From Gallionellaceae bacterium (GTDB lineage Bacteria; Pseudomonadota; Gammaproteobacteria; Burkholderiales; Gallionellaceae): a stretch of 60,082 bases of DNA. Position numbers and translations under genes: made by a program. The stretch lies in assembly GCA_006218055.1 (NCBI GenBank), contig VBWD01000010.1, positions 1-60,082 on the forward strand, read 5' to 3'. Shown piece after piece: positions 37,279-47,310 of this stretch (the first letter of the stretch is position 1; every line of letters starts with the position of its first letter). Under the pieces are notes generated by a model. It worked only from the letters and a program-made list of their open reading frames with translations. It made no database searches and had not been told where the DNA came from.

Positions 37279-37408
37279 AACGCTGCTCTCAAGTGCAAAC
37301 GATTTCGGCGGAGACTAACATTCGCGTAGCTAATGTTAAGCCGCGCAGCGGCGGTCGTAGCCAAAACAGACTGCATGTGCAAAAAGCTCTGATGGAATAC
37401 CTATTGCT
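37226..37408. repeat. Direct repeat of the argF 3' end
   Basis: A 37-base perfect direct repeat (37226-37262 within argF and 37372-37408 downstream) spaced 146 bases apart. The second copy runs on into the ribosome-binding region of the DUF2798 gene, as the original argF end should. The 109 bases in between hold an inverted argF fragment and a structured repeat. Confidence 0.9.
37303..37366 (+). repeat. Structured repeat, copy 1 (argF 3' end)
   Basis: Begins TTTCGGCGGAGACTAAC, with a TAACATT / AATGTTA 7-bp stem (37316-37322 and 37332-37338), a second small hairpin GCCGC / GCGGC (37340-37352), and TCGTAGCCAAAAC at the end. It is preceded by an inverted copy of argF sequence (AAATCGTTTGCA at 37218-37229 and its complement at 37294-37305). 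Same family as copies at 39.7, 44.3 and 47.2-47.3 kb. Confidence 0.7.
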
Positions 37409-37423
37409 CGGAAAGGTCGCTTG

Positions 37424-37651
37424 ATGCGCATCCCACCTCGCTTCATACCACTCTTGTTCCCCTTTTTCATGTCACTGGTGATGGCATTCATCATGACCGC
37501 CTTCATCACCTGGATAAACACTGGACTGGCCGATGGTTATGTAGGACGCTGGATGTATTCCTTCGTATTCGCCTGGCCCCTCGCCATGGCATGCATCGTA
37601 CTGTTCGCCAACCGTATCCGCACCATGATCGGCAAGCTCACTGCTCAATAA
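37424..37651 (+). CDS. DUF2798 small membrane protein
   Basis: 75 residues with two hydrophobic segments (about 8-30 and 45-65) typical of DUF2798. The ATG overlaps the relic argF stop (TTGATG) and is preceded by GGAAAGG, so the original arrangement was argF-DUF2798 with coupled translation, now separated by the inserted segment. Function unknown. It precedes argG, but a role in arginine synthesis is not evident. Confidence 0.8.
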   Translation: MRIPPRFIPLLFPFFMSLVMAFIMTAFITWINTGLADGYVGRWMYSFVFAWPLAMACIVLFANRIRTMIGKLTAQ

Positions 37652-37673
37652 ATCTAGCTCATAGGAAATCAAC

Positions 37674-38903
37674 ATGTCTGACATCAAAAAAACTGTTCTC
37701 GCCTACTCCGGCGGACTGGATACCTCTGTCATCTTGAAGTGGCTGCAAGACACCTACCAATGCGAGGTAGTGACCTTCACCGCCGACTTGGGCCAAGGCG
37801 AAGAACTGGAACCGGCACGCCAAAAGGCGCTGCAATTCGGTATCAAACCCGAGAACATCTTCATCGACGATCTGCGTGAAGAGTTCGTGCGTGATTTCGT
37901 GTTCCCCATGTTCCGCGCCAATACCGTGTACGAAGGCGAGTATCTGCTGGGCACCTCCATCGCACGCCCGCTGATCGCCAAACGCCTCATCGAGATCGTC
38001 AACAAGACCGGCGCACAAGCCATCTCTCACGGCGCGACCGGAAAAGGCAACGACCAAGTCCGTTTCGAGTTGGGTGCTTACGCATTGAAGCCCGGCATCA
38101 AGATCATCGCTCCGTGGCGCGAATGGGATCTGTTGTCACGTGAAAAGTTGATGGCGTATGCCGAGAAACATGGCATCCCCGTCGACATGAAACACAAGCA
38201 AGGCGGCTCGCCCTACTCCATGGATGCAAACCTGCTACACATCTCCTACGAAGGTCGCCACTTGGAAGACCCCGCAGCCGAGGCCGAAGAAAGCATGTGG
38301 CGTTGGACAGTGTCGCCCGAGAAAGCACCCGATGCAGCCGAGTATCTCGACCTCGAATACGTCAACGGCGATATCGTTGCGCTGAACGGTAGCAAACTCT
38401 CTCCCGCTCAAGTGCTGGCTAAATTGAATGAGTTGGGCGGCAAGCACGGCATTGGCCGCCTCGACTTGGTAGAGAATCGCTACGTCGGCATGAAGTCTCG
38501 CGGCTGCTACGAGACTCCCGGCGGAACCATCATGTTGAAGGCGCACCGCGCCATCGAATCCATCACGCTAGACCGCGAGGTCGCCCACCTGAAGGACGAT
38601 CTGATGCCGCGTTACGCATCCATGATCTACAACGGTTACTGGTGGAGCCCTGAGCGTCTCGCGATCCAAACACTGATCGACCACACCCAAGCCAGTGTGA
38701 ACGGCTGGGTACGCGTCAAACTGTACAAGGGCAACGTCATCGTCGTTGGTCGCGATTCCAAGACGGATTCGCTGTTCGATTCCAGCATCGCCACCTTCGA
38801 AGACGACAAGGGCGCTTACGACCAGAAAGATGCGGCGGGCTTCATCAAGTTGAATGCCTTGCGTATGCGCATCGCGGCGAACCTGAAGAGTCGCAAAAAA
38901 TAA
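37674..38903 (+). CDS. argG: Argininosuccinate synthase
   Basis: Condenses citrulline and aspartate with ATP. The 409 residues begin with the PP-loop [15 protein letters not shown] (near 11) and contain the family's [13 protein letters not shown]-type and [13 protein letters not shown] stretches. Normal length. Lies downstream of argD-argF in an arginine cluster. Confidence 0.97.
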
Positions 38904-38928
38904 ATATCCTGTTTCAAAGGAGGCTGTG

Positions 38929-45045: not shown

Positions 45046-46058
45046 ATGAAATTCATCGACGAATCAAAAATCGAAGTCATCGCAGGCGACGGGGGTAACG
45101 GCGCGGCAAGTTTTCGTCGTGAGAAATATATCGAAAAAGGCGGCCCAGACGGCGGTGATGGCGGGCGCGGCGGCAGTGTGATCGCCATCGCTGACCGTAA
45201 CATCAACACACTGGTCGACTTCCGCTTCGCACGTATGCATCGAGCCAAGAACGGCGAGCGTGGCGGCAGTGCGGACTGCTACGGTAAAGGTGCGGATGAC
45301 ATCCTGCTACGCATGCCCGTTGGTACTGTCATCACTGACGTCAACAGCGGTCAGATCATTGCCGACCTTACTCATGAGGGCGAACAAGTATTGCTGGCCA
45401 AGGGCGGTGCAGGCGGCCTTGGCAACTTGCATTTCAAATCCAGCACCAATCGCACACCACGCCAATGCACCCCAGGTGAAGAAGGTGAACGCCGCGGTCC
45501 ACTTTCATCCGTTCGGTGTCTGCCGCTCGTCCTAAGGTGGCTGATTATCCATTCACCACACTACATCCGAATCTGGGCGTGGTACGCGTGTCGCATGAGA
45601 AGAGCTTCGTCATCGCCGACATTCCAGGACTCATCGAAGGCGCTGCAGAAGGTGCGGGGCTCGGCCACCAGTTCCTGCGCCATCTGGCACGCACACGCTT
45701 GCTGTTGCACATCGTCGACATCGCACCGATGCACGAAGGGGTCGATCCTGTGCATGAAGCGCACGCGATTCTGAACGAGCTAAAGAAGTACGACGAAGAG
45801 TTGTACAACAAACCGCGTTGGCTAATCTTGAACAAGCTCGACTTGTTGCAAGACCGCGATGAAAAGGTCGCCGCCTTCCTCAAAGAATTCGGCAGTGATA
45901 CACGCCATTTCACCATCTCTGCAATCAACGGCGATGGCTGCAAAGAACTGACTTACGCCATCATGGAGCATCTGCAAGCCGCAGCTGAAGCCGAGCAAGA
46001 AGCCGTCACAGAGAGCGCACAAGAAACCGAGATCGTCATCCACGACCCACTCGCATGA
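45046..46058 (+). pseudogene. obgE: obgE with internal deletion and frameshift
   Basis: Obg is an essential ribosome-associated GTPase in nearly all bacteria. The first frame (150 residues) carries the intact glycine-rich Obg domain, ending [10 protein letters not shown]. It then shifts: the correct continuation ([22 protein letters not shown]) is in another frame from base 45498. Relatives have about 22 residues between GERR and STF, including the P-loop GMPNAGKS; here only two bases remain, so about 64 bases are missing and the G1 motif is lost. G3 DIPG and G4 NKLD are present downstream. A real protein could not bind GTP normally; an assembly error is the leading explanation. Confidence 0.9.
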
Positions 46059-47173
46059 AAACCGTTCTGACCAAATCCAAACGCATCGTCGTCAAAGTAG
46101 GCAGCAGCCTCGTCACCAATTCGGGTGAAGGCTTGGACACGCGTGCAATCGGGAATTGGGCACAACAGATCAGCACCTTGCGTGCACAAGGTTGTGAAGT
46201 GGTCTTGGTGTCGTCTGGCGCGATCGCCGAAGGCATGCAACGTCTGGGGTGGAAGCAACGCCCAAGTGCAGTGCACGAGCTGCAGGCCGCTGCTGCGGTC
46301 GGTCAAATGGGTTTGGTGCAGGTCTATGAGAGCTGTTTCAGTCAACACGGCCTGCGCGCCGCACAAGTGCTGCTGACCCATGCCGACCTCGCCGACCGTG
46401 AACGTTATCTAAATGCGCGCTCCACCCTGCGCACCCTGCTCACGCTGGGCGTCATCCCCATCATCAATGAGAACGATACCGTTGTGACAGACGAGATCAA
46501 GTTCGGCGACAACGATACCTTGGGGGCGCTGGTTGCCAACCTCATCGAGGCGGATGCACTCGTCATCCTCACCGACCAAGTCGGTCTCTTCACCGCAGAC
46601 CCGCGCAAAGATGCCAGCGCCACGCTCATCAGCGAAGCACAGGCGGGTGACGCAAAACTGGAACTAATGGCAGGTGGCGCAGGTAGCAGCATCGGTCGCG
46701 GCGGCATGATCACCAAAGTGCTGGCGGCGAAACGTGCGGCGCGCAGTGGTGCACATACCGTCATTGCTTCTGGGCATGAACGTAATGTACTGCCCCGCCT
46801 ATTGCAAGGCGAATCCATCGGCACATTACTGGTCGCTCCCGCCCTCTCACTTGATGCACGCAAACAATGGCTCGCTGACCACCTGCAAGTGAGCGGCAAA
46901 GTGACGTTGGATGCCGGTGCAGTGCGTGTGCTAAAGAATGAAGGAAAGAGCTTGCTGCCGATCGGCGTCACTCAAGTTAGCGGTGAATTCCAACGTGGCG
47001 CAGTCGTCGCCGTGCTCGACTCAGAAGGTCGCGACATCGCACGCGGCCTCATCAACTACAGCGCAACAGAAGCGCGTCGCATCGCAGGTAAGGCAAGCGG
47101 TGAGATCGAAAGTATTCTGGGTTATGTGGATGAGTCAGAACTGATACATAGAGACAATCTAGTTCTGCTGTAA
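46055..47173 (+). CDS. proB: Glutamate 5-kinase
   Basis: First step of proline synthesis. The 372 residues comprise an amino-acid kinase domain ([17 protein letters not shown] near 13; [17 protein letters not shown] near 147) and a C-terminal PUA domain (about 280-365). It overlaps the obgE frame by 4 bases. The last 17 bases before the stop form a perfect inverted repeat with sequence just after it. Confidence 0.96.
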
Positions 47174-47191
47174 GACAGCAGAACTAGATTG
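47155..47191. repeat. 17-bp perfect inverted repeat across the proB stop
   Basis: CAATCTAGTTCTGCTGT (47155-47171) and its exact complement (47175-47191) flank only AAG. The right arm leads directly into a structured repeat. There is no T-tract afterwards, so it is not a typical terminator; it looks like a fold-back copy of the end of proB. Confidence 0.9.
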
Positions 47192-47240
47192 CGGTGAAGA
47201 CTCATATTCGCGCAGCGAATGTGATGTCGAAACCACAATC
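47189..47240 (+). repeat. Structured repeat, copy 4 (proB 3' side)
   Basis: TTGCGGTGAAGACTCATATT, with a 10-bp stem (TCATATTCGC / GCGAATGTGA, one G-T pair) and a GCA loop at 47202-47224, then TGTCGAAACCACAATC. Outer bases GATTGCGG and CCACAATC can also pair. Confidence 0.75.
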
Positions 47241-47267
47241 ATTTTGCTCTAACAGAGCAATACGAGA

Positions 47268-47310
47268 CTGCGGTGAAGGCTAACTTTTAGGTTATGTCGG
47301 AGCCACAACC
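47268..47310 (+). repeat. Structured repeat, copy 5 (proB 3' side)
   Basis: CTGCGGTGAAGGCTAACTTT, TAGGTTATGTCGGAGCCACA, ACC. The stem CTAAC / GTTAG-like is 4-5 bp. It is preceded by a hairpin TTGCTCT / AGAGCAA (47244-47260). Same order as copy 4: hairpin, then repeat. Confidence 0.7.

Follow-up and report, generated by a model that had tools for sequence, protein, structure and literature searches.

The window analysed here, positions 1 to 60,082 of contig VBWD01000010.1 from a Gallionellaceae bacterium, carries five copies of a short structured repeat close to argF, ppnP, rplU and, twice, proB. Each copy belongs to a unit of about 45-150 nucleotides (nt) composed of two hairpins, H1 followed by H2, the latter being the motif singled out in an earlier note on this DNA. 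These units probably form a family of non-autonomous, hairpin-guided mobile DNA mini-elements with two hairpins in series, and look like a new sort of minimal mobile DNA, not an RNA switch. Their clean presence or absence at orthologous sites makes mobile DNA a better reading than fixed RNA regulators, since copies that are missing at orthologous sites in relatives behave as the former and not as the latter.

Filled sites, empty sites and restored gene ends

The rplU leader of the window harbors a 47-nt unit (44319..44365, + strand) located between GA and AAAACC, shortly 3' of a TATAAT recognised by eye. Thirty rplU leaders of relatives were fetched and 29 were readable; loci with and without a unit were sorted, here and at proB, by eye from the printed sequences. 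One unit is found in 17 leaders, two units or a unit and a fragment in four, a decayed unit in three and no unit in five, and the copy is therefore not required by rplU. Filled sites read GA, about 47 nt, then AAAACCGCAT, while three empty ones (G024, G026 and G028) read GAAAAACCGCAT, that is GA^AAAACCGCAT; the junction differs slightly in the two others, G020 (GGAAAACCGC) and G036 (GTAAAACCGC). The comparison indicates that the unit was inserted precisely, duplicating nothing of the target apart from the MAAY-like start (M being A or C), with the qualification that units inside genes additionally bring a copy of the following tail.

At the proB end, five of 30 loci lack the unit (G020, G004, G021, G024, G031), five display an H1-like hairpin or a remnant of it and no recognisable H2 (G005, G007, G008, G011, G034), and 20 possess both hairpins, some of them decayed or truncated. 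The proB 3' ends of G007 and G008 (L280 and L275) show an H1 palindrome devoid of H2, perhaps the footprint of a lost unit or a terminator. The G008 assembly also contains two proB homologues (on C6 and C4), 91% and 68% identical to the query, a possible sign of contamination. At argF, the unit occurs in four of the 24 loci read (G000, G001, G010, G015) and is missing from 20, and it is also present in G284, which belongs to another family. In unit-free G020, the same downstream gene follows directly after the native argF tail.

Units in argF and proB start within the coding sequence and supply their own in-frame last codons and stop, the native tail, where it survives, being found 3' of the unit as a relic. 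The argF unit of the window is 146 nt long (37218..37363, +) and comprises an argF tail with its stop (37276-37278), a linker, the proposed guide arm a', an H2 core supplemented by a second hairpin, and the end CCA; its junctions are CTGA^AAAT on the left and CCA^AAAC on the right. The coding left arm of H1 (AAATCGTTTGCA, 37218..37229, +) is complementary at 12 of 12 positions to the right arm, the proposed a' (TGCAAACGATTT, 37294..37305, +). The H2 core, with the inserted hairpin GCCGC-GCA-GCGGC, occupies 37306..37363 (+) and is matched at 73.4 bits by the covariance model R2 (see below), whose training set includes this copy. Behind it, the native tail (37364..37424, +) ends with KVA and a stop and corresponds to the gene end of G020; it differs from the inserted tail by six synonymous codons and one nonsynonymous codon.

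A similar pattern is observed more widely. The two argF tails of G010 are of separate ancestry: 15 of 19 codons differ, 14 of them synonymously, the single nonsynonymous change being the last codon, at which a Q/A difference is found in G000, G001 and G010. The inserted tail of G010 is therefore probably foreign. Over eight loci picked by eye, excluding the unequal ends of G284 and L084, inserted and native tails show 54 synonymous and 13 nonsynonymous codon differences, L029 being the least clear case (five vs four). Such a pattern would not be expected of a neutral relic left by a fresh duplication. The inserted argF tails of G010 and G001 differ at two of 54 nt, for argF bodies that are 84% identical; in this case, it looks as if the unit travelled from lineage to lineage together with its tail, and the adjoining coding sequence did not. 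The argF arm matches the inserted tail at 11-12 of 12 pairs in five genomes and the native tail at 5-8 of 12 in four of the five, but at 12 of 12 in G001. Relics also decay: the right tail of G015 is scrambled, that of L072 has lost 1 nt, and the proB relic of the source genome is gone.

Tandem arrays occur in G056, where five units of about 145 nt follow each other in one gene, each with its own tail. In the same genome, a truncated tRNA-Ser copy and a truncated tRNA-Phe copy each carry four units in the anticodon loop, and these arrays adjoin an intact tRNA. Intact tRNA-Ser genes also follow units in the source genome (L014) and at L061 and L104. Restored targets are found, in sum, in the argF, proB and tRNA-Ser cases.

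Anatomy and spread of the unit

The unit starts with MAAY, which forms the left arm of H1. The loop of H1 can be of any length: it is GNA in its minimal form, and long loops inside genes hold the last codons and the stop. The right arm is the complement of MAAY... and directly precedes the conserved H2 core, which runs C, [AG]G[TC], an internal loop GRA/GNA (3x3), a stem RRC-TAAC...GTTA-(bulged T or second hairpin)-GYC, ARCC, and A. This terminal A faces C, a conserved C-A mismatch, and the unit ends with CCA or CTA. Two pairing partners are open to the H1 right arm: the unit's own start, which gives H1, or the target sequence immediately 3' of the junction, which gives an extended H2. Among 181 distinct contexts, 67 have an H1 stem of at least 7 bp directly abutting the core within 120 nt. 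Before its left arm stands GA in 55 of them and CA in nine, several of the latter being tandem junctions, against a background of 7% and 6%, respectively. As this left junction lies outside the models, it provides independent evidence of the unit boundary. The right boundary is A in 179 of the 181 contexts, this A belonging to the models, and is mostly followed by MAA.

Two covariance models were used. R1 was made from ten of 15 copies, a first alignment of all 15 having misplaced long stems; R2 was made from 19 sequences, namely 17 of 22 distinct regular-expression matches together with L004 and L173, whereas L103, L130, L136 and two sequences nearly identical to L149 were not used. The earlier note had described the stems as compensatory, and their covariation is indeed above that of shuffled alignments, at 0.365 vs 0.206 for the R1 alignment (16 pairs, 10 sequences) and 0.398 vs 0.155 for the class with a second hairpin (24 pairs, 19 sequences), values reached by none of 500 shuffles in either case, although structure and alignment derive from the same sequences. 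Slid controls collapse. A related measure, the number of further pair types, is less clear, being reached in 42 and 36 of 500 shuffles. In H1 of proB, compared over 20 of the 25 ends with an H1-like hairpin (those of G007, G008, G018, G023 and G034, of different length, were dropped), 46 cells changed on both sides vs 14.8 after shuffling (0/500), and synonymous changes in the last codons are mirrored past the stop. Such covariation of H1 with the coding sequence can reflect selection on the folded strand or repeated templated correction, either being compatible with the data. Covariation by itself is no proof of an RNA function.

An R1 search of the source genome (a 1.66-Mb assembly of 100 contigs, 71% complete) yields exactly five matches on the window's contig (C82), at 37301-37368(+), 39687-39730(-), 44326-44370(+), 47187-47240(+) and 47266-47310(+). 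This agrees with the earlier note, both for the five structured copies and for their absence from the rest of the window. Its confinement of all copies to 37-47 kb holds for the window only: 14 of the 19 matches in the source genome (E <= 1) are on other contigs. The stems it quoted, TAACATT/AATGTTA, TCATATTCGC/GCGAATGTGA and TAACC/GGTTA, are all present. Its two shared strings are idealised. The first, CGGTGRAGRCTAAC, has with up to two mismatches six matches in the window vs 0.8 expected (0/100 shuffles reach six), which are the five copies, one of them exact, and an unrelated place at 29742. The second, GTTATGTCGNARCCACAAC, is found with up to three mismatches in two of the five copies only, both after proB. 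The family does appear unrecognised. No Rfam family, such as an L21 leader, reaches its gathering score in the window, and 16 further element loci give tRNAs only; lax thresholds add sub-threshold matches, the sole one over a copy having 18.1 bits vs a cut-off of 35.1. In literature searches, no title or abstract start describes a family of such hairpin units.

The remaining window copies are variations on this plan. A reverse unit (39692..39750, -) lies between ppnP-like and yajQ-like genes and contains the stop codon of the upstream open reading frame (ORF; 39378-39704); its left junction is ACCA^CAAC, not GA, and AAC/GTT replaces GAC/GTC in its inner stem. At the end of proB, two units stand in tandem. 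The first (47155..47235, +) is composed of H1, a 17-bp perfect palindrome (47155-47171/47175-47191) carrying the last proB codons and stop, and of an H2 core (47192-47235). The second (47236..47305, +) has another, degenerate tail hairpin and an H2 core, and ends at CCA^CAAC. Elsewhere in the window (33850-34741, -), two neighbouring ORFs encode small proteins that are similar by eye, which looks like a tandem gene duplication.

R1 detects units in 44 of 61 genomes: 34 of 34 of the genus, source included, the three other members of the family, so that all 37 same-family genomes carry them, and seven of 24 others of the order. Two wider draws were made under stricter filters, by which weak matches are lost: 89 of 300 genomes and 46 of 134 genera of the order have units, two family members being without, and R2 (E <= 0.001) finds them in two of 274 genomes of the class, the source genome and one of the same order. 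An exact pattern occurs in 48 named stretches, 15 from Gallionella/Sideroxydans/Gallionellaceae, 11 from Nitrosomonadales, seven from Methylophilaceae/Methylophilales/Methylotenera, seven from Betaproteobacteria, three from Burkholderiaceae/Rubrivivax, three from Gammaproteobacteria and two from Proteobacteria. It has no match in viral contigs, and one 63-nt query each gave no match in plasmids and phages.

Units have also been observed within or next to other repeats. At least four near-identical places in G056 (L130, L136, L141, L147) are copies of a miniature inverted-repeat transposable element (MITE) that is roughly 270 bp long, has the ends GGAAACGCTGAA...TTCAGCGTTTCC and contains two units. 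A second repeat (e.g. GTAAGGAGTAATTTTTTGTGAGCAACGC...) has one unit near its end at L017 and L024 (source genome), L050-L052, L064, L065 and L074. At L155 (G029:C1:361500-364000), units lie between partial copies of a stretch, CATCGTCAGACTCCTTAC, which resembles the end of a 5S rRNA; a similar stretch precedes the unit of L018.

A putative mechanism and its rivals

If the units are mobile DNA, insertion would occur cleanly at GA^MAAY or a close variant, in the rplU leader, in argF and proB, and in the anticodon loops of tRNA-Ser and tRNA-Phe. Unit start, unit end and target share A^MAAY, and the RTTK... arm can pair just 3' of each cut. In this position, the H1 right arm may serve as a guide, exposing A^MAAY so that it can be cut and joined at the target and at either end of the unit. 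Cutting and joining would involve single strands, possibly through a circle, and a circle entering a site already filled would give rise to an array. Tail-bearing units keep the host gene intact, leaving the native piece to decay. The capture of tails is conjectured to proceed by template switching at the hairpins, which would give the observed order. A more specific version, put forward tentatively and with the odds somewhat against it, is that of a minimal homing DNA element: one guide arm would pair by turns with the element's own start and with the target and so direct where A^MAAY is cut and joined, and a unit of 70-150 nt, by means of a long guide and its copy of the gene end, would be able to home into one and the same gene, such as argF, in other species and leave it unharmed. 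A variant at the RNA level may also exist: the unit would be taken out of transcripts, and both tails would stay coding.

Several observations weigh against mobility. It is deduced from a comparison of sites, with no transposition event seen, and none of 181 contexts (flanks mostly of 1.5 kb) contains an autonomous, enzyme-bearing copy. Direct-repeat searches in the flanks returned 24 copies within 400 nt and two farther ones that look like chance, and the four near-identical places of G056, examined as a larger autonomous version, proved to be the MITE with two units. Over the 61 genomes, neither PF01797 nor the integron integrase tracks the units. Orientation relative to replication is even, with 30 units along the fork and 27 against it in a hand count of E <= 1 matches in G029, G024, G056 and G004 (arrays counted once, near-terminus matches excluded). 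The exact GA is lacking in two of the five rplU sites without a unit, and at the ppnP copy the left junction reads CA. Apart from G001/G010, the five other pairs of inserted tails differ at 8-12 positions and are no closer than the gene bodies; with one pair in six, few cases support a transfer of tails between species. The commonest tetraloops, C(TTTA)G and C(TTCA)G (44/91), are ones for which no DNA preference is claimed, and since orthologous copies enter all the loop counts, these are not independent. Finally, G.T wobble pairs are commoner than A.C mismatches in three of four alignments (73 vs 19 in A3, 15 vs 4 and 11 vs 2; 12 vs 15 in A4). This excess indicates that the given (top) strand folds, as RNA or as single-stranded DNA; selection on RNA would give the same, which leaves some room for RNA.

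Among the alternatives, the one that survives best, albeit somewhat unlikely, is that of integron-like or other tyrosine-recombinase cassettes, in which a circle carrying a gene end recombines at a shared target, as do integrative elements of tRNA genes and gene ends. It would account for the restored gene ends, the arrays with constant junctions, the tails of separate ancestry and a folded hairpin site. The attC-type pair RYYYAAC...GTTRRRY is, however, missing, as judged by eye, and the integron integrase is distributed differently from the units. It scores above cut-off in 27 of 61 genomes, including G047, G048, G057, G058 and G060, which are R1-negative, and below it in the carriers G004, G016 and G056, the last with two adjacent fragments; as its distribution is mismatched to the carriers, this integrase was rejected as the enzyme. 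Weaker matches to its model are found in all 61 genomes and are probably other tyrosine recombinases such as XerC/D, among which the enzyme may conceivably lie.

Cis-acting RNA elements (leader regulators, attenuators or 3'-end stabilisers) selected for their RNA structure are an unlikely explanation. The strong covariation, the G.T asymmetry, the position of the rplU copy shortly after a promoter-like TATAAT and the many copies at gene 3' ends speak in their favor. The step taken in the earlier note, from covariation to selection on RNA structure, is nevertheless unsupported: the unit is found in tRNA anticodon loops and fragments, in a MITE, in gene tails as well as leaders, and in reverse orientation at ppnP, and it is missing, within the same family, from the rplU leaders and proB ends counted above (5/29 and 5/30). 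The lack of an Rfam match to the unit counts against this explanation. The loops also argue against it. Among the triloops of 147 distinct cores, GNA accounts for 53 of 91, with C-G as the closing pair in 51, vs ten GNA among 99 C-G-closed triloops of background hairpins (from the window and 60 stretches of three relatives), and seven of 91 tetraloops are GNRA and none is UNCG. C(GNA)G is an unusually stable loop that is typical of DNA; a literature search on GNA triloops returned nothing.

Equally doubtful is the view that the units are repeats like the repetitive extragenic palindromic (REP) sequences, moved by REP-associated tyrosine (Y1 HUH) transposases (RAYT) or by the TnpA of IS200/IS605. 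They do share short hairpins with conserved mismatches, tandem copies and clean insertion beside a short constant sequence, and the guide logic based on pairing resembles that of IS608 in the part of PMC5934647 consulted. But the units lack GTAG, and their even orientation counts against an IS200/IS605-type process, because transposition on the lagging strand predicts a bias. Moreover, Y1_Tnp (PF01797) was detected in 35 of 61 genomes, but 16 of 37 same-family carriers lack it, several of these assemblies being incomplete, and so does G056, which is 100% complete and has 31 unit matches at E <= 1. Carriers without it include G022, G023, G025, G027, G028, G032, G035 and G036. With PF01797 missing from so many carriers, a Y1/RAYT enzyme was rejected. 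Slightly less probable still is the absence of any mobility, with local template switching and tandem duplication at hairpins making inverted and direct copies of gene ends: the H1 right arm is an inverted copy of the unit start, arrays do occur and switching could itself keep the H1 arms matched, but the same core sits at dozens of unrelated sites under one junction rule and inserted and native tails have separate coding ancestries, so that template switching is held refuted as sole cause, while it may explain tail capture and the matching of H1.

Comparison with known systems

Should the units indeed be mobile elements, they would be among the smallest mobile DNAs, choosing their target by plain base pairing and leaving the host gene unharmed, even where it is a housekeeping gene or a tRNA gene. 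The movement of small repeats devoid of an enzyme would become directly testable, with a natural example of guide-directed insertion at hand. In target choice, the units would resemble IS608, in which the target is selected by base pairing with a guide within the element (PMC5934647, as far as consulted). Like IS200/IS605 elements, the units have hairpin ends and insert precisely at a short sequence that their guide arm may recognise by pairing; unlike them, they are tracked by no Y1 transposase, show no orientation bias and can carry gene tails, and they would use a single guide arm for the target as well as for both of their ends.

With REP sequences and REPINs mobilised by RAYT (TnpAREP), they share short, often grouped palindromes with conserved mismatches (PMC8266576, in the part available). 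They differ by the lack of a GTAG tag, the core being preceded in most listed copies by RTTK-C[AG]G (by eye), by their number (about 20 copies in the source genome), and by their location inside genes and tRNA copies with restoration of the target. The CGTC-tagged palindromic repeats are likewise short, have no known dedicated transposase and mostly end in an unpaired CCA tail, and the Rickettsia palindromic elements (RPEs) sit inside genes (PMC3733652 and PMC10969869, respectively, each as far as accessible); Gallionella, Sideroxydans, Methylotenera and Nitrosomonas are not named in the accessible main text of PMC3733652. In contrast to both, no CGTC tag is seen in the units, which restore a gene end and do not add an in-frame peptide.

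The units resemble MITEs in being small and non-autonomous, but neither terminal inverted repeats nor a short duplication of the target is seen, and a unit can ride inside a MITE. Integrative elements residing in tRNA genes or gene 3' ends carry the displaced part of the gene, thereby restoring their target, and some use anticodon loops. The units likewise restore the target gene by their own copy of the displaced part, but they do so without an integrase gene and within 45-150 nt, where those elements span kilobases.

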